A DNA stretch of 64,000 nucleotides, taken from Mesostigma viride (lineage: Eukaryota > Streptophyta > Mesostigmatophyceae > Mesostigmatales > Mesostigmataceae). The notes under the pieces were generated by a model, which made no database searches, had not been told where the DNA came from, and saw only the letters and a list, made by a program, of their open reading frames with translations. Every line of letters begins with the position of its first letter. Position 1 is the first letter of the stretch. The stretch spans positions 186,001 through 250,000 of the forward strand of contig RPFO01001313.1 in assembly GCA_009746045.1 (NCBI GenBank). Direction: 5' to 3'. The translations under genes and the position numbers were made by a program. Positions 10,537 through 64,000 of the stretch are shown piece by piece.

Positions 10537-10843
10537 TTAATTAATTAATTAATTAATTAAACTCGTGCTCCCGTTGGGGAGTCACGGAGCACCGAAGTGC
10601 TTTTAATCCCTGTGTGTGCACTACAGGAGAAAGGGCAGAGACCCCCAGTCTCCTTCATGCCAAAGGCATGCCACAGCTGCAATCGGGCGCGGCTAGCTAA
10701 AAGGACAGGCTAACGATCCGGCAAACTGTGGGTGCAATAAGACCCATGTGAGCATGTCATAGCAAGGAGCGTGGGCAAGTAATCTGAACATAGCCAGGGC
10801 GTAGCATGGCTGTACTAGAACTAGGCTAAGGCTATGGCTGGAA
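10537..10843 (-). repeat. LINE 3' terminal region with TTAA tail
   Basis: Near-identical to 34924-35223 in the same orientation. Read on the minus strand it ends with a hairpin (GTGCTCCG...GGGAGCAC, 10563-10592) and a (TTAA)n tail at 10537-10560. Only the 3' region is present; the next 500 bp (10844-11340) holds nothing I recognise. Confidence 0.75.
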
Positions 10844-11889: not shown

Positions 11890-14306
11890 CTAGATGGGGA
11901 TGTAATCCTCATCGGAGCTGTCCTCTACTGTAATGGCAGACGAGGCGGTAGTGTAGCGGCTATCCTCAGGGCCAATAACCTCCACCTGCGGACTTCTACC
12001 CTGGCTAGCAACGGGCCGCGGGGCCCGTGGGGAGAAAACAGGAGCATACCCCTCAGGAAGGTGCTTATCGCAGGTGGCAGCCCATTTCTCCTTGTCAATC
12101 ATGCGGGCGCGGAGTACGGATAGTCCCAGAAGCCCTGCATCTTCAAGCAGTTGTGTCAGTGACATAGGTCCGGGTCGCGCCGCGCCGGTGCTGGGCGCGC
12201 GCAAGTTTGCCAGTGGGTTGCGATGGGACAAGGGGACCCTGCCATAGTAGGAGGAGGTGTCTACCTGGCCTGGCCCGTCTTAAGCCCCCCGGCAGGGCCC
12301 ACATCGGTATTCACCTGGTCTGTGCGGGCAAGATGGCCGGCAAAGCGGAGCTAGGCGGCGGTGTCGGATGGTATGGGTGACAAGAGGGAGCTCGCAGACT
12401 GTAGAGCTCGGCCCGGGTGCGGCGTTCTTAAGGTAGCGGACGCCGAGGATATGACAGAGCATTCGTGTGACGGTGCCGTCAAGCTGCTGGCTCAGCGCCT
12501 GGTCCAGGGTCCACGCCTCGCAGCCGTAAAGGAGGATGCTGAGGACAAGGGCCTTGAACGGAATGCGCTTGCGTCGCTCACTCAGGTAGCGGCAGGTCCA
12601 GAAACTGTCGAGGCGGCGGAGGGCCGCCCAGGCCTGGCCAATGCGGGGGTTGATGTCGTCGGCCGTGGAGGGAAGCCATGCAGCTGCCAAGGAGCAGTTG
12701 AAGCGAGTCGCCGGGGGGACGGGGCTGCCGTCCAGCAAGAGGATCAAGGGTGGGTGGGGCTATCCCAGCAGGGAAGCCGATGGCCATGACCTCCGTTTTC
12801 TTGCTGATCATAAGCCCCACCGCCCGCGCTTCCAGTGATAACCTGTCTAGCCAGAGTTGCCGGGCTGACTCCGGGGTTTCCACGAGCGTCGTGTCATCAG
12901 CGTAGATCAGATCGCTCAGGCGGTAGGGTGGATCAACCCCGCCATAGCTGGCGTACTCCATGACCTCAATCCCCGGCCCGGGGCGCCCCTCCATCTGGGC
13001 GAAGCGGGCTTGTGCACGCCGCATAATATAGTCCGCCATAATGATGAATAGATATGGGGAGAGCACACAGCCCCGCTGCCACACCCTGGTGTGCAGGGGG
13101 AACGCCGGAGTGACGCCGTCGGCGGTACGGACCTGGGCTTGGGACCCTTCATAGAACTGGCGGATGATCTCAACGATGTACGATGGGACACGGAACAGGT
13201 GAAGGACCACCCACAGGGCGTCCCATATATAACCGTATCGAATGCCTTGGTGTAATCCACGAAGATCAATAGCAATGGCAAGAGGCCGGGGGCCAGGCGG
13301 CCCACTTCCTCGATCAGGCGGCGTGCGGTAATGGTGACCATAACACAATTGCGACCAACAAGGAAGCCCATCTGGGACTCGCCTAGGTGGGGATCGAGGC
13401 TGGCGCGCATGCGGTTCAGCAGGAGATGCATGAAGACTTTCAGCACGCAGCTTTGGAGGCATATACGCCGCGGTAGTTGCCAGTAATAATCCGCGGCGGA
13501 CCCCTTGCCCTTGTAGAGCATGACCCGAACAGCGGTCTTCCAATACGTCGCGGTGGGGGGAGGCCATCTCGTAGAATCCGGTTGCAAACACCCCGGAGGA
13601 AAGGCTCAAGCTCAGGCATCCTAACCACCTCCGGTGAAAAATTGTCCACTCCCATGCATGGCAGCATCATTGCGAAGGGTGGAGATGGCAGCAGCCCATT
13701 CCTGGGGAGTCCACTCGTCATGTGGGGGCCGCGCGTCCACCAGGGGGCCGGAGAGCGGTGGGACCAGGTAGTCCGTCTCACTGGTGGGCGCCTGCGGGGG
13801 CTCAATGGGGCCGCCTCGGCTGGCCGCAGGGCGTGCAGCTGCAGCGGGGTCAAGCGGGGGGGGCATGCCAGGGGCCCCCGATAGTTTGGCCTGGGAGCTG
13901 AACCAAATCTCAAGCTAGGCGTTCACTGGGGGTGCCCGGGATGTCAGCCCGTTGCGTTTCCCACCGTCCGGTGAGACGGTCGAGAGAGCGCCAGGCCGCC
14001 TTGTGCTGGTTGGCGGCCGTGTGGCGATTGATTTCTGCGGCAATTGTCTCCACCTCCTCCGCATGAGCGGCAGTATATATATGCTTGAGTAAGCCGTTCC
14101 TGGTACGGGTACAGGTCCTCCCTGCGGCGGCGGGCCTGCGCTAGCGCCAGCCGGGCGGCGACCACCCAGGCGTCGCGCAGGTAGAGCGGGGCTGGTCGGG
14201 CGCGGGATTGCTCGGGGAGAAGCTTAGAGCCAAGCTCCACCGATCGCATGAACAGTTCGTAGGGTGGCGTTAGATCTACACCGCGATCTGCATCCAGGTA
14301 CATCAA
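11890..14306 (-). pseudogene. Degenerate LINE ORF2 (reverse transcriptase)
   Basis: The minus strand carries a reverse transcriptase split over at least four frames. In order: a pre-RT helical region with AQARRRREDL (14150); fingers MLYKGKGSA and GESQMGFLVGRN (13520-13340); motif A FVDYTKAFDT (about 13260); motif B RGCVLSPYLF (about 13070); catalytic motif C IYADDTTLVE (about 12895); thumb SILLYGCEAWTL (about 12520); and a C-terminal tail ending at 11890. No N-terminal endonuclease is seen, so it is 5' truncated. Several frame breaks are at inserted TA steps (CATATATAAC at 13225). It resembles LINEs with YGxEAWTL-type thumbs found in algae and dinoflagellates. Confidence 0.85.
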
Positions 14307-19836: not shown

Positions 19837-19991
19837 ATGGCGAGCAAACGCTCCTCCGCGCAACGCAGCCTGGCGGCTGCGCTCAGCCCTGAAAATACGT
19901 CTGCAGCTCCGGCTGCAGCTTCGCCTTCCAGCCCCGAAGGCAGCGGCGCCACTAGCCAAGCCGGCCTAGTGCTCGCCCAGCCCCCGGCCCC
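19837..19991 (+). pseudogene. Half-LINE ORF1, N-terminal piece (interrupted)
   Basis: ATG 19837 starts MASKRSSAQRSLAAALSPEN, homologous to MTSKRPLTQRSLADALAHEN of the intact ORF1 at 31574. The leader (ACGCACACGCTGATATCACG) also matches. After QPPAP the frame is cut by the terminal repeat at 19992. The next residues of this protein (PGLASPAASPEPKRSRP) resume at 34662 on the far side of the 14.7-kb block. Confidence 0.8.
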
Positions 19992-20018
19992 CCCTAAGCA
20001 CACCTGGAATTGTACTAC
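19992..20018 (+). repeat. Left terminal inverted repeat
   Basis: Begins CCCTAAGCACACC and ends TTGTACTAC. It matches the reverse complement of 34637-34663 except for one A/G difference at its sixth base. Confidence 0.8.
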
Positions 20019-20103
20019 ATTTTTCAAATTGTACTTCAGTTTTGAAAGTTGCATTTTCATGCATTTAAAGTTTCAACTAAAGTCTTTGAGGAAAAAAAAG
20101 TTC

Positions 20104-20842
20104 GTCGGCGGCCGGCACACCGGCACACCGGCACACCGGCACACCGGCACACCTCAAATTGCATGTATGCACACACCTTTGCACATGCAATTGTTATCCA
20201 TGGGATTTATGTAGGTGGATGGGTCATGCAAGGGTTACCTAGATGCTCATGACACCGTGGCACCGTGGCATCGTGCCACCGTGCCACCGTGCCACCGTGC
20301 CACCTCAAAAGTTGCATATAAACACACATATTTGCACATACAATGGTTATCCATTGGGATTTATCAAGGGTAATGGGTCATGCAAGGGTTACCTAGACAT
20401 GCTCATGACACCGTTGCATCGTGGCATCGTGCCACCGTGCCACCGGCACACCGGCACACCGGCACACCGGCACACCGGCACACCGTTGCACCTCAAATTG
20501 CATATAAACACACACCTTTGCACATGCAATTGTTATCCATGGGTTTTATGTAGGTGGATGGGTCATGCAAGGGTTACCTAGATGCTCATGACGTACACCA
20601 TGGCACCGTGGCATCGTGCCACCGTGCCACCGTGCCACTGTGCCACCTCAAAAGTTGCATATAAACACACATATTTGCACATACAATGGTTATCCATTGG
20701 GATTTATCAAGGGTAATGGGTCATGCAAGGGTTACCTAGACATGCTCATGACACCGTGCCACCGTGCCACCGTGCCACCGTGCCACCGTGCCACCGTGCC
20801 ACCGTGCCACCGTGCCACCGTGCCACCGTGCCACCGTGCCAC
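20104..20842. repeat. Composite satellite: 8-mer arrays between 105-bp spacers
   Basis: Runs of GGCACACC (20113-20152, 20440-20480) or GTGCCACC (20265-20303, 20600-20645, 20752-20842) alternate with four copies of a roughly 105-bp spacer (GTTGCATATAAACACAC...GGGTTACCTAGATGCTCATG). The spacer is the same whichever 8-mer it borders. It lies just inside the left end of the TIR block. Confidence 0.9.
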
Positions 20843-22955
20843 CTCCACAACGGTATGAAAGTGCCAAAAAATGCCCTTATAAGCCCTACATGGAGCAAAT
20901 TGAGTCCAAACATGCTAGATATTGGTAGGCAGCATGTCCAGGACACCAGTAGAAGGAATTTGACTTTCCAGAATTTTCCGACATCGGTTGGTCTATTTTT
21001 GGCATGTCTATTTTTAGCAACTTTCCAGATTTTAAGGGGAGGGTCCCATGGAATTGTATCAAAACTGAAGCCCCCTAATAACTACAGAAATGCAACTGAC
21101 AACCACTGAATGATGTTTGGGGACCATAAACATGATGTTTGGGCATGCATACCACCACTTGTTGGGGGTACTACCCGCAGCCATACACCGGCTATGAGCT
21201 AAAAATAGAAAAAAACGCTGTCCGGGGCACATCTTGCCCAGACCAGTGGGAGAACCAGTTGCATGAAAAAAGTAATACCCATATAAAAATGTCATGGGAC
21301 ATGGTTTCTACCTAATTGGATCAACAAAATCAGCACATCCCTTTGAGTTATTAATTTTTGGGCCAAAAATACGCTTTTTTAGGCGGGGCGCCCCCATACA
21401 CACTCATAACACATCAATTAGGCCTAAAAAGTAATAGTCGAATTCTGTCATGACCATAGAAGGCACTACCAAAGTTTGGTGGCATTCTGAGCTCAGCTGT
21501 AGCAGTTATTAATTTTGGCAGTTGGCCACCTGTGCAGACGCTAAGGAAGGCATTAGTGAGTATTAAGGCACACTAACACTTCCTATGCCATCCAAAAGGC
21601 TCCTGACCATGCCCAATTCGACCACAATGTACAAGGAGGTGGCTGGGCACGTCATGTGCCCTTGCCTTACCTTGACACGGGCAACCTGTTGCGTGTGTGC
21701 ACAACAATGAGGCAGGTAGCTCTACATGCCTAGCCGACACTTCTAAAGCATATTCCAGGTTTATGGTGTGGGCATCATCCCAAAACCAAGCTCAAACACA
21801 CCCTAGAAAGCCATATCCACTAATTGCCCAACAAGGGTAACAACAGACAGTCCACAGAGAAAGCAGAATTGTCATACATGCTGATTGCCAAGGCTTCTCA
21901 CCATGGTTACCTTGCCTTGCCAGCATATGAATTAGGGCTCTCCCATTTTAGTGGGAGAAAGGCCGACAAGACAACCATAACCCCTACCTACGTGCAGTTC
22001 CACCCATGCAGTATGCCCCTCAGAAAAACCACTGCCACCTTTCTTTCCAGCGCAATTGTTTGGCAAGAAAGAAACTCAAGCTTGTGAGCCTCTAACCACA
22101 ATGAAGCCTCTGCTAAGAAAGGCCGCGTCAATATTCACACAAAACTGAGTGCTGTTAGCAATCTCCTTCCAAGAAACCACTCAGCAAATCCCTGACAACT
22201 TGACGATATGCCACGGTCGCGCTTTGACACGTCCCAGCCATGCAACGTACATAAAAACCACTGAAAGGTGCCAGGAATCTGGCGATGCGCAGCACGGAAT
22301 GGCATTATACCTGGCGCTAACTGCACGGAAAAAAGCCGAAAACTTGCGTTGATAACCCATCAAGGAAGCGAAACATTCATAGGGTCACGTTGATCACACG
22401 ATCGTACCATTACCGGCATTGTCCTTCGCCCAGCGGCGCAAGAAAGAACAACCTTCCATGGAATAATAAGACGCGCATCCCGCGAGCCTGGAGAGTGTCT
22501 TACCGATCATGACGGAAATCTTGCCGAAACCCAGCAAATTTTTTAAATCTTTACCAATAACAATTTAAACGCATCCTTGACGCTAGGTAAAGCCCATAAA
22601 ACCTGACAATCACCGCCGCCAGCGTGCATTCTAATTTATTCCTCTCGACGAAAACATCAGATTGGACCCCCGTGGCGATGGTCATCAATAAAATCATCGA
22701 CACTGCAAAAAACGCGAACTCCGCTACGAAGTAGTATCATTTACTCATCGTCTTTAAGATTCGCTCAGTTTCTCTGCATTCCGCGAGCTATCTTTTTCTA
22801 CTCTGCCTGAAAGCACGTCGCCATGGCCAGCTCCGGTAGGGGTGCGCGCACCGTGCACCACTTTTTCACGGTACGGACGGGTACCGCGAATTTTTCGGCG
22901 CCAAAAATATTCGCGCCGGGACCGTCCCCTTAATATAAACAAATCCTCATAATCG
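20843..22955. other. Single-copy stretch inside the TIR block, no gene recognised
   Basis: About 2.1 kb with no repeats and only short open frames on both strands; the longest is about 87 codons at 21824 and matches nothing I know. Composition is more balanced than the satellites around it. It could be decayed cargo or host sequence. Confidence 0.5.
22892..22920. promoter_or_regulatory. Possible E2F-type sites
   Basis: TTCGGCGCCAAAAA and, just after it, TTCGCGCC resemble E2F/DP binding sites (TTTSGCGC). They lie about 500 bp upstream of the open exon at 23414. Sequence match only. Confidence 0.3.
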
Positions 22956-23420
22956 CTTCCATCGCTGGTGCTTCCATCGCTGGTTCATTATCCCCTACAT
23001 GTAAAGACCATCGGGCATTCTGGAGTACAATTTGGTGGTGTGCCGGTGTGCCGGTGTGCCGGTGTGCCGGTGTGCCGGCCAGTGATTGGCCCGTTGCTGA
23101 TTTGCTGACATGCAGCCTAATAAAAATTGGCCGCAAATTCGTCCGGTCGCACGTGGGCACAAGATTTGCGGCCAATTTTTACTAGGCTGCATATCAGAAA
23201 ATCAGCAACGGGCCAATCACTGGCCGGCACACCGGCACACCGGCACACCGGCACACCGGCACACCGTGCCACCACCAAATTGTACTCCACCGGTGTGCGG
23301 CGTGGGACACAACAACAACAACAACAATGGCGGCGTGCCACCACCATTAATTTTGTACTCCGTGCCACCACCATTTGGTCTTTACATGTAGGGGATATCG
23401 GAAAGCACCAGCGATGGAAA
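22956..23420. repeat. Foldback element with TIR-like arms and palindromic core
   Basis: Outer arms pair CCATCGCTGGTG (left) with CACCAGCGATGG (right) and CCCCTACATGTAAAGACC with its complement. Next inward, both arms carry AGTACAATTTGGTGG plus GGTGTGCC arrays, which resemble the block's terminal repeat. The core (23082-23225) is a long palindrome, with GCCAGTGATTGGCCCGTTGC pairing with its complement and TTGGCCGCAAAT with ATTTGCGGCCAA. The right arm has an extra duplication of about 100 bp with an (ACA)n run. Confidence 0.8.
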
Positions 23421-23647
23421 AGGACGCAGTAGCCCCACCAGACACAATGGATCCCGGCCATGAACCACCGGGGCAAGAGAACCAGACAAAGGATACAGGC
23501 CCTGTATCCGTGACAGGTGTAGATGATGAAGAAAGGAAGAAAATGCAAGCGGCCGTGTATCACAGGGGCGCAGTGAATGAACTTGAGAGAATACTTGCCT
23601 CTGGTGCTTCGGATGATGAAGCCGACCGTGTCACTGGGAAATCTGAG
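23414..23647 (+). CDS. Candidate first coding exon, function unknown
   Basis: ATG 23414 opens 78 codons ending at GAG followed by GTAAAT, a plausible donor in phase 0. The product is acidic and soluble: MEKDAVAPPDTMDPG..., then DDEERKKMQAAVYHRGAVNE and ERILASGASDDEADRV, likely helical in its second half. Composition and codon pattern look like protein rather than repeat. The ATG itself overlaps the right arm of the foldback. The next exon was not found; the zinc-ribbon exon at 26093 needs a different phase. It may be a captured gene fragment. Confidence 0.35.
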
Positions 23648-23679
23648 GTAAATTTATGACAGGGGAAATCCGGCTGTTA

Positions 23680-23838
23680 TTTTACTAAAGGTATATTACA
23701 ATAAGTGCAGTTCTTGGCGTTTGGAATCATGACATTGCTTGTGCTATTGCTCTTGAATTGCATTTTACCAAAGGAATATTACAATAAGTGCAGTTCTTGG
23801 CGTTTGGAATCATGACATTGCTTGTGCTATTGCTCCTG
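23680..23838. repeat. Tandem duplication, two units of about 74 bp
   Basis: The segment ATTACAATAAGTGCAG...CATGACATTGCTTGTGCT occurs twice in direct order with one or two changes, just downstream of the candidate exon at 23414. Non-coding. Confidence 0.85.
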
Positions 23839-24055
23839 AATTTAAGTGCCCGCACCCCGCCGGCGCACCCCGGCGAACAAGACAAAGCGCACCGTTACCC
23901 CCCTAGGCCCATCGCTGCCGTCGCCGGGCGGCACGTTGGGGAGGCGGCTCCTTCTCCCTTTTCTGGTGTCTGTTGCATCATTTTGAACCCCTGACCAACG
24001 GAGGCATGTTAATGAACGAGTGGATGCATGCATGAATGAACGGATGCATGAATGA

Positions 24056-24546
<491 letters not shown>

Positions 24547-24682
24547 AGGTGTGCTTTTTATTATGATGATTAGCTAAGTTACGTGTGTGTTGTTGATGTA
24601 CATGTTGACGTTGTATCATGGGCGTGTGCCCCTAAGTCTGCCTTCCTGCAATATCACATAATATATCATCTAGATGTGTTGT

Positions 24683-25570
24683 TGGGAACCTGACTATATA
24701 TCCCAAACTGGAAGGGTTGACATTCAACTATGGGATGAAACCCACGAAAAACAATTACTAGGAACTGCCATTTTTGTGCTATGTTTGCTAGCATCTGTCA
24801 CCTATTTGTCATGCAAACAGTCTGAATTTCTTGTGGGCAGTTAACATAGATGTTTTTATGAGCTGTGCAATTTTCTAGGCTTAACTGAGTTCATTGATAT
24901 AGGCACCCATGTGTTGGAACCCTTGGAAAACCAAGAAAAACTGCATTTGGGGGGTATTTATGCTAGCATTTGTCACCTATTTGTCATCCAACCAGCCTGA
25001 AACTTTGTGGGCATGCTGCTTGGGATGTGTTTACAACATGTGCAAAGTCCCAGGCCCAACTGAGTTCATTTGGAGTCATTATGTATGCATATGTGTGATA
25101 AAACCCTTGAAAAACCAAGAAAAACTGCATTTGGGGGGTATTTATGCTAGCATTTGTCACCTATTTGTCATCCAACCAGCCTGAAACTTTGTGGGCATGC
25201 TGCTTGGGATGTGTTTACAACATTGCAAAGTCCAGCCCAACTGAGTTCATTTGGAGTCATTATGTATGCATATGTGTGATAAAACCCTTGAAAAACCAAG
25301 AAAAACTGCATTTGGGGGGTATTTATGCTAGCATTTGTCACCTATTTGTCATCCAACCAGCCTGAAACTTTGTGGGCATGCTGCTTGGGATGTGTTTACA
25401 ACATGTGCAAAGTCCCAGGCCCAACTGAGTTCATTTTGAGTCATTATGTATGCATATGTGTGATAAAACCCTTGGAAAACCAAGAAAAACTGCATTTGGG
25501 GGGTATTTATGCTAGCATTTGTCACCTATTTGTCATCCAACCAGCCTGAAACTTTGTGGGCATGCTGCAT
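24683..25570. repeat. 181-bp satellite, block 1
   Basis: About four and a half tandem units with period 181 bp. Each holds TGCTAGCATTTGTCACC, CAACCAGCCTGAAACTTTG and GGGATGTGTTTA. Units are about 95% alike. Short Met-initiated frames recur every 181 bp and are not genes. Confidence 0.92.
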
Positions 25571-26361
25571 GCACATCAATCCGACGCCGCGCCAAAGTGT
25601 CCGCGGCAAATCCGGGGTGAAATTGACGAAATTCGGTGCGCGCGGGAGATGTTGAGTGCAAATTTCATTGCGAAGGCTATGGTGGCGTGAAAATTTACTG
25701 TGCACGGATTACGAAGCCATTTTGTACCGGATTTCGCTTGTTCGATCGGCATTGACGTAAGGAAATTTATTCTGCAAAAAAAAGGTCGGTAAACAGTTTT
25801 TGTGTGTGTGTGTGCGAGGGCAAACACGCAGCAGTGGCCAGTTTCGCGCGCCGAGCGCAGCCACCCCTGCGTGTTCAAGGTAATGGCTAGCACAGATTAG
25901 ACGCTACTGGTGGGAGGGCACACTTTCGAACGATTCCTTATATCATTTCGAAGAAATCCAGCACAGCGATTCCCTTAATTTTGCGTTTCCATGTTGCACG
26001 CAATTTTCCCGTAAAAGTCAGATTTATAGGAGCGCTGACAGGGGCAAAAATGCATGTCGTGGATTTAATCGCTTTTACCCCTTTTTTTGCAGCTTTATGA
26101 CTTCCCTTGGGCAGAGCAACATCGTCAGCTGCATAACCTGCGGGCGGGGCTCGCTGCCGACGTCGCTGGTGTGCCCGGGGTGCGGGAGAACCACCATCTA
26201 CTGGTTTCTATCGTCGTAACCCGCTTTCTTGTCGTAATTAACCGGCGTAGTCTAGTGGTTTAAGCGTCCGGCGACGGGCGAAACGAACTCTTAACCTGAC
26301 GCCATGGCCTGAGAAGGCACTCCGAGAAGGACTGGGGCGGGCGGGCTAAATAAAACGCGAC
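25571..26361. other. Single-copy stretch between satellites
   Basis: About 790 bp without repeats. It ends just where the second copy of the segmental duplication begins (26362). It contains the zinc-ribbon frame at 26093-26219 and a tRNA A-box-like GTAGTCTAGTGGTTTAAGCG (26245) with no B box. Nothing else is recognised. Confidence 0.5.
26093..26219 (+). CDS. Candidate terminal exon with a C4 zinc-ribbon motif
   Basis: A strong acceptor (CCCCTTTTTTTGCAG) is followed by a short frame to TAA 26219. It contains CITCGRGSLPTSLVCPGCGR, two CxxC knuckles 10 residues apart, as in zinc ribbons. The tail is TTIYWFLSS. The exon would need a preceding exon ending in phase 2, which I could not find. The phase-0 frame is also open for 57 codons but has no recognisable motif. 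It may be a leftover of a host gene carried in the TIR block. Confidence 0.33.
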
Positions 26362-26574
26362 AGTGCCCGCACCCCGCCGGCTCACCCCGGCGAACAAGAC
26401 AAAGCGCACTGTCCCCCCCCTGGGCCCATCGCTGCCGTCGCCGGGCGGCACGTTGGGGAGGCGGCTCCTTCTCCCTTTTTTGGTGCCTGTTGCATCATTT
26501 TGAACCCCTGGCCAACGGAGGCATGTTCATGAATGAGTGGATGCATGCATGAATGAATGGATGCATGATTGATG

Positions 26575-27851
<1,277 letters not shown>

Positions 27852-27982
27852 AAGGTGTGCTTTTTATTATGATGATTAGCTAAGTTACGTGTGTGTTGTT
27901 GATGTACATGTTGACGTTGTATCATGGGCGTGTGCCCCTAAGTCTGCCTTCCTGCAATATCACATAATATATCATCAAGATG

Positions 27983-29760
27983 TGTTGTTGGGAACCTGAC
28001 TATATATCCCAAACTGGATCAGAATATATCCCAAACTGGAATGGTTGACTTGCAACTATGGGATGAAACCCTTGAAAAACAATTACTAGGAACTGCATTT
28101 TTTGTGCAATGTTGCTAGCATCTGTCACCTATTGGTCATGCAAACAGTCTGAATTTCTTGTGGGCAGTTAACATAGATGTTTTTATGAGCTGTGCAAAGT
28201 TCTAGGCTTAACTGAGTTCATTGATATAGGCACCCATATGTTGGAACCCTTGGAAAACCATGAAAAACTGCATTTTGGGGGTATTTATGCTAGCATTTGT
28301 CACCAATTTGTCGTCCAACCAGCCTGAAACTTTGTGGGCATGCTGCATGGGATGTTTGATCAGGCACTCCCTGCTGGCATGCTGCATGGGATGTGTTTAG
28401 AACATGTGCAAAGTTCCAGCTCCAACTGAGCTCATTTGGTGTCATAATGTATGCATATGTGTGATAAAACCCTTGGAAAACCATGAAAAACTGCTTTTTT
28501 TGGGTATTTATGCTAGCATTTGTCACCAATTTGTCATCCAACCAGCCTGAAACTTTGTGGGCATGCTGCATGGGATGTGTTTAGAACATGTGCAAAGTTC
28601 CAGGCCCAACTGAGTTCATTTGGTGTCATTATGTATGCATATGTGTGATAAAACCCTTAAAAAACCATGAAAAACTGCATTTTTGGGGTATTTATGCTAG
28701 CATTTGTCACCAATTTGTCATCCAACCAGCCTGAAACTTTGTGGGCATGCTGCATGGGATGTGTTTAGAACATGTGCAAAGTTCCAGGCCCAACTGAGTT
28801 CATTTGGTGTCATTATGTATGCATATGTGTGATAAAACCCTTGGAAAACCATGAAAAACTGCATTTTTTGGGTATTTATGCTAGCATTTGTCACCAATTT
28901 GTCATCCAACCAGCCTGAAACTTTGTGGGCATGCTGCATGGGATGTGTTTAGAACATGTGCAAAGTTCCAGGCCCAACTGAGTTCATTTGATGTCATTAT
29001 ATATGCATACATGCCAGAAAGTGCTGAAAATACGGTATTTTTTGCTAGCAAATGTCACCATGTTACCATGCTGCCAACTCCCAAAATTTTTTTTGACCAC
29101 ATGGCATCATAAGATATCTGATAAGGAACCTTGGTGCCAAATTTGAGGTCAAACTGACCATTATTCCATCTCCAAATATTTTCCAGGGGAAGAAAATGGG
29201 TTTTCGGATTGATGTGTGGAATGTGTTTAGAACATGTGCAAAGTTCCAGCTCCAACTGAGTTCATTTGGAGTCATTATGTATGCATATGTGTGATAAAAC
29301 CCTTGAAAAACCAAGAAAAACTGCATTTGGGGGGTATTTATGCTAGCATTTGTCACCTATTTGTCATCCAACCAGCCTGAAACTTTGTGGGCATGCTGCT
29401 TGGGATGTGTTTACAACATGTGCAAAGTTCCAGCTCCAACTGAGTTCATTTGGAGTCATTATGTATGCATATGTGTGATGAAACCCTTGAAAAACCAAGA
29501 AAAACTGCATTTGGGGGGTATTTATGCTAGCATTTGTCACCTATTTGTCATCCAACCAGCCTGAAACTTTGTGGGCATGCTGCTTGGGATGTGTTTACAA
29601 CATGTGCAAAGTCCCAGGCCCAACTGAGTTCATTTGATGTCTTTATATTCTGATCAGGCACTCCTGATGTCTTTATATATGCATACATGCCAGAAAGTGC
29701 TGAAAATACGGTATTTTTTGCTAGCAAATGTCACCATGTTACCATGCTGCCGACGCCCAA
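27983..29760. repeat. 181-bp satellite, block 2
   Basis: About nine units of the same satellite as at 24683, with two sub-variants (CCATGAAAAACTGC versus CCAAGAAAAACTGC) and two interruptions containing ATCAGGCACTCC (28370, 29650). The right part carries GACCACATGGCATCATAAGA twice: once uninterrupted (29096-29115) and once split by the insertion at 29792. Confidence 0.9.
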
Positions 29761-29791
29761 AAATTTTTTGGACCACATGGCATCATAAGAT

Positions 29792-31759
29792 TGAATTGAA
29801 TTGAATTGTAACATAACTCCGTTGGGAGTATATGTAGCACATAGCCCAGAGAAGGGGCATATGGCCTATCATACATTCTAAGCTACTTCCTGCAAGGGTG
29901 GGAATGTAAACAACACTTGCTCTAGGTGCACTAGGGCACCTGCACCACCCAGAGTTTCAGGCAACACCCAGCGAAGGGGAGCCTGTCATAGGTGGGGAAG
30001 ATCATCATGGCTATACAAGAGCTAGGACATGGCTTCTCTACAGAGAGCATCTCTCTGCATGGCATAGAATGGCGAAATTCTTAATGCAACATCCATGGGG
30101 GTCCCGTTATAGGCAGGGCTTGGCTAAATCCTGTAGACAACATCCATGGGGGCCATTATGGGCGCACATGCGCGTGGGCCACATGCTAGGCTAAGCCTGA
30201 CTAATCTACACTACTGGTATGAATTCCCTAGTCTGGGGTGGCAGGAGGGGGCTGCCAGGGCTTGTGGTCAACGTGGATGACCGCCCCCCTCCAGTATACC
30301 GGCTTCCCCCCTGCGCTGTGCCGGAGCTGAAGGTAGGCCGGCCATAGCTCGCGTCGCCGCTGTTGCTGGGCCAGGGTCAAGTCGTCGTCCAGCGTGAAGC
30401 GAGTCCTCGAGAGCTTCTTGCGGCATTTAAGGAACGACAGCTTGTCCGCCATGTACTTAAAGGTGAGGAGCACGGGTGCCGGGCCAGCCTTCCCCCGCGC
30501 GCGGGGGAGGCGGACAGCCGACATGTCCAGCTCACCAGTGAGTAGCATGGGGGCAAGAATGTCGCGCTTAAATGCCTCAAGAAGGGTCGTGGAGGTCTCA
30601 CCTGCCGGCTGGTCGAAGTGCTTGACGATGACATTGTGGCTGCGCCGGGCGATGTCGGTTTCCTCGCGAAGGTCGAGGGCTTGTTGCTTGAGTTGTGCCG
30701 AGATGGTGGAGGTGGTGGAGGTGGTGTGCTGCTTAAGCAAGTCCGCCCAGGTGGAGGGAGCATCGCCGGCCGGGCCAGCAGACGCCGGCTGGGCGGCGAT
30801 GTCCTTCACCGCCTGGGCGGTGAGGCCGGCGGTGTCATGCAAGCTCTCAAGGGCGTTGGCGGTGGCTTGAAGGCGTTGGTCGAGGTCGAGGAGCTGGGCT
30901 TTGATGTCGGCAGTGGAGGCGGAAATGGCAGTGGAGGTGGAGGCGGCAGCGGCGGAAATGTGAGGAAGTTCAGCAGCCAGCGTGCCACCCATTGCTGCGA
31001 CGTCAGCAGCAAGGGGGGTCACGTGCTGCTGAAAGGCTTCCGTGAGGATGGAACGGAGGGTGGGGGCGGAGATGGATGGAGCCCAGATCTCGTCGTCAGA
31101 GCGCTCGAGAAGGGAGTTGAGGATGGTGTGCTGGAGCTGGGGGCGGGGGCAGCCAAGCAGGGCGCCGTGGGTTTGCCAGCGGCAGCCGTTGCTGCCGATG
31201 AGGCGACCTTGGTCGTAAAGATGGAGGCACAGGTCGTAAAGCGAGGCGTAGTCCCCGTAGAAGATGCAGTCCATAGCATCGTAAGGAGACAGGTTGTTCC
31301 AGTCGTGATCATCGACCTTGAAAGGGTGGGGCCGAAAGCGCGGTTCCGAGGGGCGGGACCATCCTGTTTTGTCGGCTGGGCGGGTGCGTTTCGGGTCAGG
31401 CGATGCCGATGGCGAGGCATTAAGCCCGGGAGGTTGCTGGGTGGCCACCAGTGCACGACTAGTGTCACCGCTGTCTACCGGACCTGATGGCGAAGCTGCA
31501 GCCGCAGCTGCCGCATTTTCATGGGCGAGCGCATCCGCCAAACTGCGTTGCGTCAAAGGACGTTTGCTCGTCATATATTGCGTGTTAGATTCGGAAAATT
31601 ATATCAGCATGTGCGTCTTAGAGAGACGAAGCGATAGTGATATTCACAGCTGAATTTGGGGCTCAAACGTGAAAGTTATGAGCTCCGCCGTCAGCCATGG
31701 CTACCTCGTGGCTCGTGGCTCCGATATTATCCATCCATCCACCGGGGTTAATGCTCCGT
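29792..31759 (-). mobile_element. ORF1-only (half-LINE) retrotransposon, full length
   Basis: A 1968-bp insertion flanked by the 10-bp duplication ATCATAAGAT (29782-29791 and 31760-31769). A paralogous empty site is present at 29106-29115. Read on the minus strand: a 5' leader of 185 bp, one ORF (30228-31574), a 3' UTR of about 436 bp, and a short tail of ATTCA repeats. There is no reverse transcriptase, so mobilisation must come from another LINE. It looks like a recent insertion, because the ORF is intact and the target duplication perfect. Confidence 0.85.
30228..31574 (-). CDS. LINE ORF1-type nucleic-acid-binding protein (448 aa)
   Basis: Intact frame starting MTSKRPLTQRSLADALAHEN. The order is: an Ala/Pro-rich N-terminus with a basic patch (DPKRTRPADK); a middle region with WNNLSPYDAMDCIFYGDYAS; a long helical, probably coiled-coil stretch (about 170-270); and a C-terminal RRM-like/CTD block (about 300-440) with APVLLTFKYMADKLSFLK and FTLDDDLTLAQQQRRRELWP, ending PVYWRGAVIHVDHKPW. 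That last block is the usual signature of LINE ORF1 proteins, which coat the RNA and act as chaperones in the RNP. Four other copies or fragments occur in this window (9979, 19837, 34664, 35331). Confidence 0.85.
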   Translation of the reverse strand: MTSKRPLTQRSLADALAHENAAAAAAASPSGPVDSGDTSRALVATQQPPGLNASPSASPDPKRTRPADKTGWSRPSEPRFRPHPFKVDDHDWNNLSPYDAMDCIFYGDYASLYDLCLHLYDQGRLIGSNGCRWQTHGALLGCPRPQLQHTILNSLLERSDDEIWAPSISAPTLRSILTEAFQQHVTPLAADVAAMGGTLAAELPHISAAAASTSTAISASTADIKAQLLDLDQRLQATANALESLHDTAGLTAQAVKDIAAQPASAGPAGDAPSTWADLLKQHTTSTTSTISAQLKQQALDLREETDIARRSHNVIVKHFDQPAGETSTTLLEAFKRDILAPMLLTGELDMSAVRLPRARGKAGPAPVLLTFKYMADKLSFLKCRKKLSRTRFTLDDDLTLAQQQRRRELWPAYLQLRHSAGGKPVYWRGAVIHVDHKPWQPPPATPD

Positions 31760-31856
31760 ATCATAAGATATTAGAGGTCAAACTGACCATTAATTATTCC
31801 TTCTCCAAATAATTTCCAGGGGAAGAAAATGGGTTTTCGGAGTGATGCGTGTGTCA

Positions 31857-32456
31857 AGAAATGTCACGGTGGCACGGTGGCACGGTGGCACGGTGGCACG
31901 GTGGCACGGTGGCACGGTGGCACGGTGGCACGGTGGCACGGTGGCACAGTGGCACCCCACGTTGGGCAGTGCTTGTGGGCAATATAACATTAATATTGGA
32001 CGTTATGTTACCTCGTGACACCATACAAAATCATAAAATGGTAGTTTTATGGTGGCATGGTGGCACGGTGGCACGGTGGCACGGTGGCACAGTGGCACCC
32101 CACGTTAGGCAGTGCTTGTGGACATTATAACATTAGTATTGGACGTTAGGTTACCTTGTGACACCATACAAAATCATAAAGTGGTAGTTTTATGGTGGCA
32201 TGGTGTGCCGGTGTGCCGGTGTGCCGGTGTGCCGGTGTCACAGTGGCACCCCACGTTAGGCAGTGCTTGTGGACATTATAACATTAGTATTGGACGTTAG
32301 GTTACCTTGTGACACCATACAAAATCATAAAATGGTAGTTTTATTGTGGCATGGTGTGCCGGTGTGCCGGTGTGCCGGTGTGCCGGTGTGCCGGTGTGCC
32401 GGTGTGCCGGTGTGCCGGTGGCACAGTGGCACACCACGTTAGGCAGTGCTTCTAAA
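31857..32456. repeat. Composite satellite: GGTGGCAC / GGTGTGCC arrays with spacer
   Basis: 8-mer arrays GGTGGCAC (31863-31950, 32050-32095) or GGTGTGCC (32200-32238, 32350-32420) alternate with a spacer of about 110 bp (CCCCACGTTRGGCAGTGCTT...CATACAAAATCATAAAATGG). The orientation is opposite to the left-end arrays at 20104. The satellite continues at 34479-34545 after the insertion at 32516. Confidence 0.9.
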
Positions 32457-32515
32457 CCCTAAAGATTAGTATTGGACGTTAGGTTACCTTGTGACACCAT
32501 ACAAAATCATAAAAT

Positions 32516-34478
32516 CGGGGTTCTTTGAACGGAGTTTCTTCTATACGTGAATGCGGGAACAAGAGGCCGCTGGATGAGCGGCTTATAGGTCGTAGTGTTT
32601 ACTCGTAGCTGTTTGGCTAGAGCTTTTGTGATTAGTAGATGCAATATAGTGCATGGTTGAAAAATGAATTAAATAAAATGTGCGTTCCGCGCTTGGGTTG
32701 ATTATACCCGGGCGGAACGGGGCGTGAGGTGCAGTGCCCCTGAAAAGAACAACCTACGCATTATTTAATACTAGCCGTGCAGATTCGGGATATTCTACCC
32801 CCGGTCTGTACGGTTAGCGTCTTACTAGCATCCACTAAACATAAGGGTTTAATGACGTCAGTTAGCTAGGGATAAGGGAGGTTTTGCGACTAAAAGCCGC
32901 TCTGGCTGGTTTTGTCGGCCTCTTTCTTTGCTCGTTGTCGTTGCGGCGGCAGCCGCAGCTATGGGTGCTGCGGAGCAAAATCCCAAAAGCACTGGTTGCA
33001 CTGGCCACTTGGCCAGTGGTGAGACTTCCAGTTGTTAACCGGCCAGGCGTAGTTCCTCGCTCGGTTAACTAAAAGAAAAGAAAATGATTACCTCCGGTCC
33101 GCACCTTTTCCCCAGCTTGGGGTCTTTGGTGGGCCGGATGCCGTGACAGGTGCTCAACTGTCGCTTGGTCGGCCCAGTGCGCGAGCTGGTGCTCCGTACC
33201 TGGGGATGCTTGCACCCCGGGTTGGAGCCGGATGGCTGGCACTGGCGACCCGTGTCTCGGTCCGCGGCCTGCGGCTTTTTCTTCGGAAATTGCTGCTGGC
33301 CAGCAAACTTTGCAATTGCCTTCCGCCGAGGGGGGGTGGTTGGGGCTGGGGACGGCGATGGGAAAAGCGCCTAAGCTAGAAATTTTTTCCCCACGCATAG
33401 AAACCTCGGGGGGGAATGCGGTCTTGGCTGAACGGACTCTCGTTCAGCCAGGTGCCTGGGGCTGTGGCCTCGGGCATCCGGGCTGGCGGGGCCTGGGCTA
33501 GGTCCACGTTTTTTCTCGAAGCACCCCGGGTCTATGGGGAGACGGCCATAGCGGTACCGACTCGGGGCCCCGAGAGGGGTCATGATAGGCTGGCCGTGCG
33601 CAATCGCAGTACAAATGCGCTGGGCCTTTTTGGGCCTGGCCATGCATCCACAGCCGCCGGGCACACGCCTCCCGATGTGGGGGGGCTCCCGTTTTGCGGC
33701 AGGGCGGTCACTTGTGACAACGAGCAAGGTGGAGTGCGGCTTCAAGGGAAAGCCAGGGCGGGGGTGATTGGGCAACGTACTTCATGAAGGGCCTTGAACG
33801 GCGTGCCTCCGGGCATGTCAATTAGTGTCACATGTATGCTTCCACTTATTGTTTTAATGAAGATGCTGGTTTTTGTGGGAGCTACGTGGGACATGAATCG
33901 GGGTTCTTTGAACGGAGTTTCTTCTATACGTGAATGCGGGAACAAGAGGCCGCTGGATGAGCGGCTTATAGGTCGTAGTGTTTACTCGTAGCTGTTTGGC
34001 TAGAGCTTTTGTGATTAGTAGATGCAATATAGTGCATGGTTGAAAAATGAATTAAATAAAATGTGCGTTCCGCGCTTGGGTTGATTATACCCGGGCGGAA
34101 CGGGGCGTGAGGTGCAGTGCCCCTGAAAAGAACAACCTACGCATTATTTAATACTAGCCGTGCAGATTCGGGATATTCTACCCCCGGTCTGTACGGTTAG
34201 CGTCTTACTAGCATCCACTAAACATAAGGGTTTAATGACGTCAGTTAGCTAGGGATAAGGGAGGTTTTGCGACTAAAAGCCGCTCTGGCTGGTTTTGTCG
34301 GCCTCTTTCTTTGCTCCCCACCCACCCACCCGTGTCTTGGTTGCCTCTAGGGCAACGTACTTCATGAAGGGCCTTGAACGGCGTGCCTCCGGGCATGTCA
34401 ATTAGTGTCACATGTATGCTTCCACTTATTGTTTTAATGAAGATGCTGGTTTTTGTGGGAGCTACGTGGGACATGAAT
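32516..34478. mobile_element. Split-direct-repeat element (tyrosine-recombinase retroelement type)
   Basis: Layout A1-X-B1-A2-Y-B2: A1 32516-32933 and A2 33899-34316 (418 bp each, near identical); B1 33770-33898 and B2 34350-34478 (129 bp each). X is 836 bp and Y only 33 bp. B1 and A2 abut directly. This split-repeat order is known from PAT, Ngaro, kangaroo and TOC1-type elements. The insertion point in the satellite (CATAAAAT/GGTAG) shows no target duplication, only AAT shared with the B-A junction. X has frames of up to about 120 codons but no recombinase or RT motif, so the copy is non-autonomous. Confidence 0.75.
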
Positions 34479-34545
34479 GGTAGTTTTATGGTGTGCCGGT
34501 GTGCCGGTGTGCCGGTGTGCCGGTGTGCCGGTGTGCCGGTGTCAA
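34479..34545. repeat. GGTGTGCC array near the right TIR
   Basis: After GGTAGTTTTATG, the satellite spacer resumed from 32515, come six GGTGTGCC units. They mirror the GGCACACC array at 20113 next to the left TIR. Confidence 0.88.
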
Positions 34546-34636
34546 AACATGATGAGACACTTACCAGCTCCTAGCTTTGGACCTAAGGGAGGTACAAAAT
34601 AACAAAGTTGAAAAAAAGTCAATTTGTACTTGTGCT

Positions 34637-34663
34637 GTAGTACAATTCCAGGTGTGCCTAGGG
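34637..34663 (-). repeat. Right terminal inverted repeat
   Basis: Read on the minus strand it begins CCCTAGGCACACC and ends TTGTACTAC. It contains GGCACACC, the same 8-mer that is amplified in the subterminal arrays. Confidence 0.8.
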
Positions 34664-34912
34664 CCCGGGCTCGCCTCGCCCGCAGCGTCGCCTGAGCCCA
34701 AGCGCAGTCGCCCTGCCGGGACGAACTGGGACGAGTTCGACTTTGACACCAGCCAGCCCAGCTTTTTCGACAAGATCACTTACGACCGCATCGTGAGCTA
34801 CAGTACGTGTTCTGGGGATCGCACGCCTCGCTTATACTGAATAATTGTGCAAGCAGCTCTTCCACCAGGGTCGCCTCGTCGATTCCTACCATACTGCATG
34901 GTCAGGCGCCCG
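34664..34912 (+). pseudogene. Half-LINE ORF1, continuation after the TIR block
   Basis: Resumes the ORF1 cut at 19991: GLASPAASPEPKRSRPAG, then FFDKITYDRIVSY and, one frame over, a region matching YGDYASLYDLCLHLYDQGRL of the intact protein. It is itself cut at TACGAATACAT by the nested element at 34924. A remnant probably continues at 35656-35790. Confidence 0.7.
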
Positions 34913-34923
34913 TACGAATACAT

Positions 34924-35644
34924 TAATTAATTAATTAATTAAACTCGTGCTCCCGTTGGGGAGTCACGGAGCACCGAAGTGCTTTTAATCCCTGTGTGTG
35001 CACTACAGGAGAAAGGGCAGAGACCCCCAGTCTCCTTCATGCCAAAGGCATGCCACAGCTGCAATCGGGCGCGGCTAGCGAAAAGGACAGGCTAACGATC
35101 CGGCAAACTGTGGGTGCAATAAGACCCATGTGAGCATATCATAGCAAGGAGCGTGGGCAAGTAATCTGAACATAGCCAGGGCGTAGCATGGCTGTACTAG
35201 GACTAGGCTAAGGCTATGGCTGGTTGTGTACCGTGCGTTGGCGGCACGTGACTAGGTGTGTTGGCACAGCTAGGCATGGCTGCCTTAGCGGCAGTGACGC
35301 CAATGGTTACAAGCTAGGGCTATTGCTATTCTAGCCCGCTGGGGGCGTCCACATCTTGTGGTTGATCATCAGGTCCCCGCCCCTCCAGTACACCTTGGGC
35401 TTCTGGGGGTCCTGCTTATGGCGGAGGTATTCCGGCCACAGGTCGCGTCGCTGCTGTTGCTGAGCGGGGGTGAGGTCGTCATCCAGCGTCCAGGTGAGGT
35501 CGTGCAACCGCTTGCGACGAGAGAGGAACCGCTGCTTATCCTCAGGGGAGGGGAAGGTGAGTAGGACTGGTGGGGGGGCCGCCTTGTCCCGTGAGTGGGG
35601 AAGGCGGTGGCACCCACGCAGTTCTACCTCACCTACCAGGCCCA
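34924..35644 (-). mobile_element. 5'-truncated ORF1-only LINE, nested insertion
   Basis: A 721-bp insertion flanked by the 11-bp duplication TACGAATACAT (34913-34923 and 35645-35655). On the minus strand it holds the ORF1 C-terminus (35645-35331; APPPVLLTF..., LDDDLTPAQQQQRRDLWP), then 407 bp of 3' UTR, the terminal hairpin and a TTAA tail at 34924. ORF1 runs straight into the UTR with no ORF2. This is a second subfamily of half-LINE, distinct in tail from the one at 29792. Confidence 0.8.
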
Positions 35645-35789
35645 TACGAATACATCCTCACCGCCTCCCGCCCCAAGCTGCAGATATACGCCCTCTTCCC
35701 CCGGCCTCCTTGGACGCTCCATCGTGGTGGAGCTCTGGCCCCCCAAGCCCCTCACCTGACCACCTCGACCGACGATCAGATTACTTGCC

Positions 35790-36014
35790 CACGCTCCTTG
35801 TTATGCCATGCTCACATGGGTCTTATTGCACCCACAGATTGCCGGATCGTTAGCGTGTCCGTTTAGCTAGCGTGCCCGAATGCAGCTGTGGCATGCCTTA
35901 TAGGCATGAAGAAGACTGGGGGTCTCTGCCCTTTCTCCTGTTGTGCACACACAGGGATTAAAAGCACTTCGGTGCTCCGTGACTCCCCAACGGGAGCACG
36001 TGTTTAATTAATTA
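35790..36014 (+). repeat. LINE 3' end (hairpin + TTAA tail), plus orientation
   Basis: Reverse complement of the 3' UTR at 34924-35150: GGGTCTCTGCCCTTTCTCCT, GGATTAAAAGCACTTCGGTG, the hairpin at 35972-35999 and the tail TTTAATTAATTAAT. The CCAT/CCCA arrays begin directly after the tail. Confidence 0.8.
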
Positions 36015-37263
36015 ATCCATCCATCCATCCATAGTTCCATCCATAGTTCCATCCATCCATCCATCCATCCATCCATCCATCCACCCACCCACCCACCCAC
36101 CCACCCACCCACCCACCCACCCACCCACCCACCCACCCACCCACCCACCCACCCACCCACCCACCCACCCACCCACCCACCCACCCACCCACCCACCCAC
36201 CCACCCACCACACCCACCCACCCACCCACCCACCCACCCACCCACCCACCCACCCACCCACCCACCCACCCACCCACCCACCCACCCACCCACCCACCCA
36301 CCCACCCACCCATCCACCCACCCACCCACGTACCCACCCACCCACCCACCCACCCACCCACCCACCCACCCACCCACCCACCCACCCACCCACCCACCCA
36401 CCCACCCACCCACCCACCCACCCACCCACCCACCCACCCACCCACCCACCCACCCACCCACCCATGCACCCACCCACCCACCCACCCACCCACCCACCCA
36501 TGCCCACCCACCCACCCACCCACCCACCCACCCACCCACCCACCCACCCACCCACCCACCCACCCACCACACCCACCCACCCACCCACCCACCCACCCAC
36601 CCACCCACCCCCACCCACCCACCCACCCACCCACCCACCCACCCACCCACCCACCCACCTGACCCACCCACCCACCCACCCACCCACCCACCCACCCACA
36701 CCCACCCACCCACCCACCCACCCACCCACCCACCCACCCACCCACCCACCCACCCACCCACCCACCCACCCACCCACCCACCCACCCACCCACCCACCCA
36801 CCCACCCACCCACCACCCACCCACCACCCACCCACCCACCACCCACCCACCCACCCACCCACCCACCCACCCACCCACCCACCCACCCACCCACCCACCC
36901 ACCCCATCCATCCATCCATCCATCCATCCATCCATCCATCCATCCATCCATCCATCCATCCATCCATCCATCCATCCATCCATCCATCCATCCATCCATC
37001 CATCCATCCATCCATCCATCCATCCATCCATCCATCCATCCATCCATCCATCCATCCATCCATCCATCCATCCATCCATCCATCCATCCATCCATCCATC
37101 CATCCATCCATCCATCCATCCATCCATCCATCCATCCATCCATCCATCCATCCATCCATCCATCCATCCATCCATCCATCCATCCATCCATCCATCCATC
37201 CATCCATCCATCCATCCATCCATCCATCCATCCATCCATCCATCCATCCATCCATCCATCCAT
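36015..37263. repeat. (CCAT)n (CCCA)n (CCAT)n array, 1.25 kb
   Basis: A short CCAT run with two ATAGTT breaks, about 840 bp of CCCA (36079-36904), then about 360 bp of pure CCAT (36905-37263). All six frames stay open over long stretches (419 codons of MDGW/VGGW on the minus strand), which is a product of the 4-bp period. The purity of the CCAT part suggests recent expansion or assembly uncertainty. Confidence 0.95.

Positions 37264-43402: not shown

Positions 43403-64000
<20,598 letters not shown>

Follow-up and report, generated by a model that had tools for sequence, protein, structure and literature searches.

A 14.7-kb block in a Mesostigma viride retrotransposon with the features of a non-autonomous DNA transposon and foldback-like ends

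The described systems closest to the locus reported here are DNA transposons whose ends carry repeated short sequences. In Foldback-type elements (Drosophila Foldback, Tetris and Galileo), inverted ends hold tandem repeats and copies without open reading frames (ORFs) occur. Reports on these elements state that their internal repeats can seed satellites (PMC4079207), propose that such repeats are secondary transposase sites, as reported for one Galileo (PMC3573991), and treat the iterated terminal units of Galileo as further binding sites (PMC3573991; PMC4079207). CACTA/EnSpm and other CMCT elements combine short terminal inverted repeats (TIRs), target duplications of 2–3 bp and iterated subterminal motifs, which in CACTA elements are described as recognised by an element protein (PMC2613891). 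One account gives CMCT duplications as 2–5 bp and their termini as mostly CA..TG (PMC12730594). Teratorn, a large unit with additional internal ends, and the Ising transposable element (TE), DNA carried between foldback elements, are described together (PMC6431247). Here we analyse a block of 14,672 bp (14.7 kb) with matching inverted ends, at positions 19992–34663 of a 64,000-nucleotide stretch (64 kb; hereafter the window) of contig RPFO01001313.1 from the single-celled green alga Mesostigma viride. The block is lodged in the ORF1 of an old retrotransposon, and its most likely history is that of an enzyme-less DNA transposon that entered once and then grew.

Like TIR DNA transposons in general, the block has matching terminal inverted repeats (28 bp, one mismatch) and a target duplication, CC, at a single insertion point. 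Like Foldback-type elements, it holds short tandem repeats in its inverted ends, here oriented 8-bp arrays. Its 2-bp duplication lies within the CMCT range, whereas Foldback-type duplications are longer, at about 7–10 bp (8–10 bp reported for Tetris, PMC4079207; 7 bp for Galileo, PMC3573991). Also unlike the Foldback type, the block is clearly inverted only over 28 bp plus the 8-bp runs, its composite spacers differ between the two sides, and no transposase was seen in the block frames scanned. Its termini read CCCTA..TAGGG, rather than CACTA or the CA..TG of most CMCT lineages. A further difference from CACTA/EnSpm is that neither a transposase nor a binding-protein gene was found in those frames; the DDE transposase with C2C and H3-4H features that marks CACTA/EnSpm had no Pfam match there, and non-autonomous copies would lack one. 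The ends of piggyBac elements also begin with CCCTA, and their target duplication is TTAA. The block's junctions are without TTAA and carry a CC duplication at a C-rich site instead. The CC duplication and the CCCTA..TAGGG ends together fit none of the families compared, and we therefore file the block under no superfamily, in agreement with the original prediction, which had described the ends as CCCTA-type and the superfamily as unclear.

One insertion point in an old ORF1

The boundaries of the block and the ORF1 that it interrupts are as follows.

19992..20019, + strand: left TIR, 28 bp, from the sequence match to the right end
34636..34663, - strand: right TIR, 28 bp, one mismatch against the left, from the sequence match
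19837..19991, + strand: left part of the target ORF1 (about residues 1–50), stopping at the insertion point, from tblastn and the empty-site join
19990..19991, no strand: left CC copy of the 2-bp target duplication, from frame restoration at 2 bp
34664..34801, + strand: right CC (34664–34665) and the resumed target ORF1 (PGLASPAASPEPKRSRPA...), from the frame and the junction sequence

The left end reads CCCTAAGCACACCTGGAATTGTACTACA at 19992–20019, and the right end is the reverse complement of CCCTAGGCACACCTGGAATTGTACTACA at 34636–34663; a single A/G mismatch separates the two copies. Searching 64 kb for CCCTARGCACACCTGGAATTGTACTACA returns these two sites, one on each strand (+ on the left, - on the right), and 100 dinucleotide shuffles of the window return none. 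The TIR pair is also the sole exact inverted pair touching the block in a search for pairs of at least 18 bp lying at least 5 kb apart, made with 13 array intervals masked, which took in satellites, simple sequence and the 8-bp arrays of the block. The remaining pairs listed by that search all lie outside the block, and 20 simulated windows yielded a single 18-base pair in all. The exact TIR core had no match in prokaryote genomes and IMG/VR viral contigs, a result that says nothing about a repeat in an alga. When pieces of the ends were translated and combined, none of 1126 candidates from a protein collection matched at E<=10, a weak test given non-coding ends.

Both outer junctions converge on one target position. 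We used a script to rejoin the empty site, keeping the end at 19992 and trimming 0–4 bp from the right flank; the 2-bp trim alone yields one open frame spanning the junction. This frame reads AQPPAPGLASPAASPEPKRSRPA across the join, and AQPPAPGLASPAASPEPKRSRPAGTNWDEFDF over a longer stretch. With the 2-bp trim, 29 of the 46 related ORF1 proteins match (all 46 are labelled Mesvir1 and were those at E<=0.001 among 8000 candidates scored); the six matches listed reach 107–112 bits over about 94 residues. Trims of 0, 1, 3 or 4 bp give 25 matches each, those listed scoring 52–59 bits and mostly covering the left half. Because the 2-bp trim restores the frame, the two junctions belong to one target point, at which CC was duplicated. 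The sequence would also allow a duplication of 3 bp, CCC, but this breaks the frame. To the left of the insertion the related protein P0002 matches at 81.6% over its residues 2–49 (19843–19986, tblastn). To the right the ORF1 is in frame only as far as about 34801; past that point the old long interspersed nuclear element (LINE) is frameshifted, rearranged and partly inverted. Independent small elements at each junction were considered and rejected, since both outer junctions map to one base of one ORF1.

The original prediction had proposed 27-bp inverted ends with one mismatch, a single insertion, a target duplication of 2–3 bp at most and an ORF1 frame that is split and then resumed. The inverted ends, their mismatch and the single insertion are borne out, the frame-restoring join placing both ends at one target base, but the repeats are 28 bp long rather than 27. 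The frame narrows the duplication to 2 bp. The split ORF1 is indeed rejoined by the 2-bp trim, though its right part can be followed in frame only as far as about 34801.

An element of about 300 bp with a TTAA-type tail occurs in three copies that are 93–99% alike (10540–10841, 34922–35223 and 35776–36016). One copy is inverted, and two stand on either side of a target-LINE fragment that has been rearranged.

Oriented arrays at the ends and in the foldback

Inward of the TIRs the block carries arrays and motif copies, and further in a palindrome.

20112..20843, + strand: left subterminal array of 8-bp units CCGGCACA / CACCGTGC, composite period about 156 bp, single orientation, from Tandem Repeats Finder (TRF) and word counts
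31862..32431, - strand: right subterminal array, the left-array words reversed, composite period 143 bp, from TRF (194 words on -, 1 on + in 31862–32512)
34490..34542, - strand: outermost right array, 122–174 bp inward (the left array starts at 121), from TRF (47 words on -, 0 on + in 34478–34663)
20027..20038, + strand: second copy of the end motif AATTGTACTNCA, from a motif search
22957..23419, no strand: foldback palindrome, from inverted-repeat, motif and word-count evidence

The same 8-bp words form arrays at both ends, on opposite strands and at equal distance from the end. The (CCGGCACA)n run starts 121 bp from the left end, and its right-hand counterpart about 122 bp from the right end, both with the same orientation when read inward. 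Counting all rotations of both words on each strand, we found 213 on the + strand and 0 on the - strand in the left end (19992–20850), against 1 and 241, respectively, in the right arrays and right end (31862–32512 and 34478–34663). Away from the ends and the foldback arms the words are scarce: six in the rest of the block, and 34 in the 49 kb outside it with both strands summed. TRF lists 12 period-8 rows for the window, every one of them inside the block. The unit GGCACACC forms part of the right TIR itself, with AGCACACC as its left counterpart. The end motif AATTGTACTNCA, with up to one mismatch allowed, has five matches in 64 kb, each of them exact and inside the block, where 0.75 would be expected. 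The looser pattern GCACACC-N(1-12)-AATTG has seven (two overlapping) against 0.25 expected, again confined to the block and sharing the orientation of the ends.

The palindrome is built from the same parts. Its inner arms (23021–23138 and 23164–23289) contain 8-bp arrays together with the end motif in outward orientation, and its outer arms, of about 50 bp, lie at about 22957–23010 and at 23376–23419. Array words number 0 on + and 35 on - in the left arm, and 46 on + and 2 on - in the right; along the whole block the end motif runs +,+,-,+,-. Neither the oriented 8-bp arrays at both ends nor this internal, outward-facing pair of ends had been noticed before; they connect the foldback with the block. 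The foldback that had been placed inside the block is present, but it is larger than its core and made with the block's own end motifs.

Nested insertions and coding content

The interior holds further units, several with junctions of their own.

29792..31759, - strand: nested LINE with intact ORF1 at 30228–31574 and a CAATT-type tail, from the ORF and junction sequence
32513..34478, no strand: a later insertion present twice, head to tail, and cut into a unit of the right array, from repeat and junction comparison
23845..25571, + strand: first copy of a composite unit of (AGGG)n, (GTGC)n, (GTGG)n and a 184-bp satellite, from TRF and repeat comparison
26362..29646, + strand: the composite unit again, with more of the 184-bp satellite, from TRF and repeat comparison
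23351..23656, + strand: exon-like open frame (MEKDAVAPP...), then a possible 5' splice site, from the ORF list
26097..26219, + strand: short CxxC..CxxC frame (MTSLGQSNIVSCITCGRG...), after a possible 3' splice site, from the ORF list

The nested LINE is bordered by a perfect 10-bp duplication, ATCATAAGAT, at 29782–29791 and 31760–31769. Its ORF1 agrees with a Mesvir1-labelled predicted protein at 437 of 439 residues, both differences falling at the aligned start. In a separate comparison, 30231–31547 aligns with P0001, a predicted Mesostigma protein made up of a 2-oxoglutarate oxygenase part (residues 1–269, by Pfam labels) and this LINE ORF1. The oxygenase part has no credible match in the window, and the P0001 gene model is probably a prediction fusion.

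The tandem pair at 32513–34478 shows AAT at all three junctions. Its arms of 421 and 129 bp are 100% identical between copies, and the middles, 836 and 33 bp long, are without visible likeness; on one reading, relatives with swapped cargo were inserted in tandem. The pair starts with TC after A and ends with AA before T, and its tail may form a stem (-19.5 kcal/mol, a value without a control). Helitrons end in CTRR. The pair has no CTRR end, and its two ends share just a 7-bp, chance-like match; we assign it to no family. For the block as a whole we rejected a Helitron, given its TIRs and target duplication.

The two composite units match at 93.9% over their first 313 columns, and ten array intervals together make up 5,234 of the 14,672 bp of the block. 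Outside it, a 5.7-kb array of 61-bp units (49600–55280; 93 copies, 98% matches) leaves long minus-strand open frames, one of 2,239 aa (49437–56153), though 61 is not a multiple of three.

Our Pfam scan of the block took 7 of 11 non-empty joined sets (frames of at least 36 aa from non-array stretches, two sets cut to about half) and four block ORFs within a set of ten proteins; arrays and satellites were left out. No match above cut-off, to a transposase or to any other family, appeared in the block frames scanned, which comprised the nested ORF1, the exon-like frames and joined pieces. A padded search with the MEKDAV frame as a possible transposase start gave 33 candidates, none at E<=1. The CxxC frame, taken over 25884–26216, scored 15.9 bits against the zinc-ribbon family zf-ChsH2, below its cut-off of 23.2. 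The one match above cut-off in the ten-protein set was a reverse transcriptase at 12581–13666, outside the block, and 10 further ORFs outside the block had no Pfam match. ARAGORN found no transfer RNA (tRNA) genes in the window, and no Rfam family reached its gathering score there. Beside the CxxC frame, 26243–26330 resembles on visual inspection a decayed tRNA promoter, a possible short interspersed nuclear element; ARAGORN and Rfam gave no match. The contents originally listed for the block (satellites, a foldback, an intact ORF1 at 30228–31574 and exon-like frames) were all found, and the statement that no transposase is visible agrees with the Pfam result for the frames scanned.

Probable accretion and its rivals

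These observations are best explained, and we think probably so, by a non-autonomous DNA transposon of the TIR class, whose ends are foldback-like and whose present 14.7 kb is mostly accretion and not the product of one jump: this reading accounts for the 28-bp ends, the one insertion point, the CC duplication, the oriented arrays and the nested insertions with their own junctions. A transposase encoded elsewhere would have bound the TIRs, and the iterated 8-bp units were probably extra docking sites for it. The element would have entered the retrotransposon ORF1 once, by cut and paste. Slippage and unequal exchange may then have expanded the arrays, and the interior would have gathered the LINE, the tandem insertion pair and the satellites until it reached its present size, as their separate junctions suggest. 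Whether the block had moved as a unit or grown was originally left open; the junctions of the LINE, with its 10-bp duplication, and of the tandem pair favour growth.

Several points weigh against this account. Mobility is argued from one locus, and the transposase scan covered part of the block's frames. Because the target is a run of C, neither the precise position of the end nor the duplication is fully certain; the last base of the end is thus less secure than the frame. With two mismatches allowed, the end motif ceases to be in excess, at 19 matches against 13.6 expected, a number reached in 11 of 100 shuffles, and the variant GCCACC-N(1-12)-AATTG occurs at chance (1 against 1.13 expected). 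The spacers of the left 156-bp and right 143-bp units are at best weakly alike in the one pair compared, their inverted alignment score being matched by 24 of 500 shuffles and their same-strand score by 114. On this comparison the ends do not look like classical long TIRs. In the stretch from TIR to array, the left and right sides appear dissimilar.

The motif order +,+,-,+,- can also be parsed as two canonical left–right pairs, and the array words of the foldback arms follow in matching order. Two related elements could then be neighbours, with A spanning 19992 to about 23080 and B about 23224 to 34663. Either they would have inserted next to one another and later moved as a composite by way of the outer ends, or they would have arisen by aberrant transposition. 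We regard this as a possibility, though on balance an unlikely one. The inner ends are without CCCTA and differ from the outer TIR beside the motif, and the sequence between them is itself palindromic, with arms that reach into sequence absent from the outer ends. It is the missing CCCTA that keeps two elements as a rival rather than our preferred explanation. Internal ends and movement as a composite have precedents in Teratorn and Ising (PMC6431247), but the block is far smaller, shows no viral genes or transposase, and its composite movement is hypothetical.

The meeting of both ends at one target point would also suit a giant non-autonomous transposon that moved all 14.7 kb with its cargo already inside. 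That history appears improbable: the ORF1 of the nested LINE is open and its 10-bp duplication perfect, the tandem arms are identical over 421 and 129 bp, and the target ORF1 is frameshifted and rearranged, so that the cargo looks younger than the target, though its age relative to the insertion does not follow from this. Finally, repeats at both ends might have joined the wrong contigs, and the region is rich in tandem arrays, where assembly is weakest. An artefact of this kind is very improbable, as a misjoin would hardly leave an ORF in frame over both junctions with a 2-bp duplication. Long reads would support the block if the window derives from the published long-read Mesostigma assembly, reported as 113x PacBio with an optical map (PMC6947507). 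The strains named for Mesostigma viride assemblies are NIES-296 and CCAC 1140 (PMC6947507; PMC7027972).

Accretion around a single insertion thus remains our preferred history. It is rather unlikely that the block represents a lineage not yet described in this early-diverging streptophyte alga, marked by CCCTA..TAGGG ends, a 2-bp CC duplication and oriented 8-bp docking arrays grown from a TIR unit, and that the internal, outward-facing ends make it a composite that could be mobilised from either end pair. Among the open-licence PMC papers listed in our searches, none appeared to describe this element. Unusual in detail, the block is yet of a broadly familiar kind, apparently an enzyme-less DNA element grown by repeats and insertions. 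If other copies share its ends, tandem arrays would be seen to grow from a unit inside a transposon's own TIR, and the origin of satellites would be linked, outside animals, to the sites that a transposase binds. The repeats catalogued for Mesostigma viride, reported to make up 66% of its assembly (PMC6947507), would then gain a TIR family without assignment.

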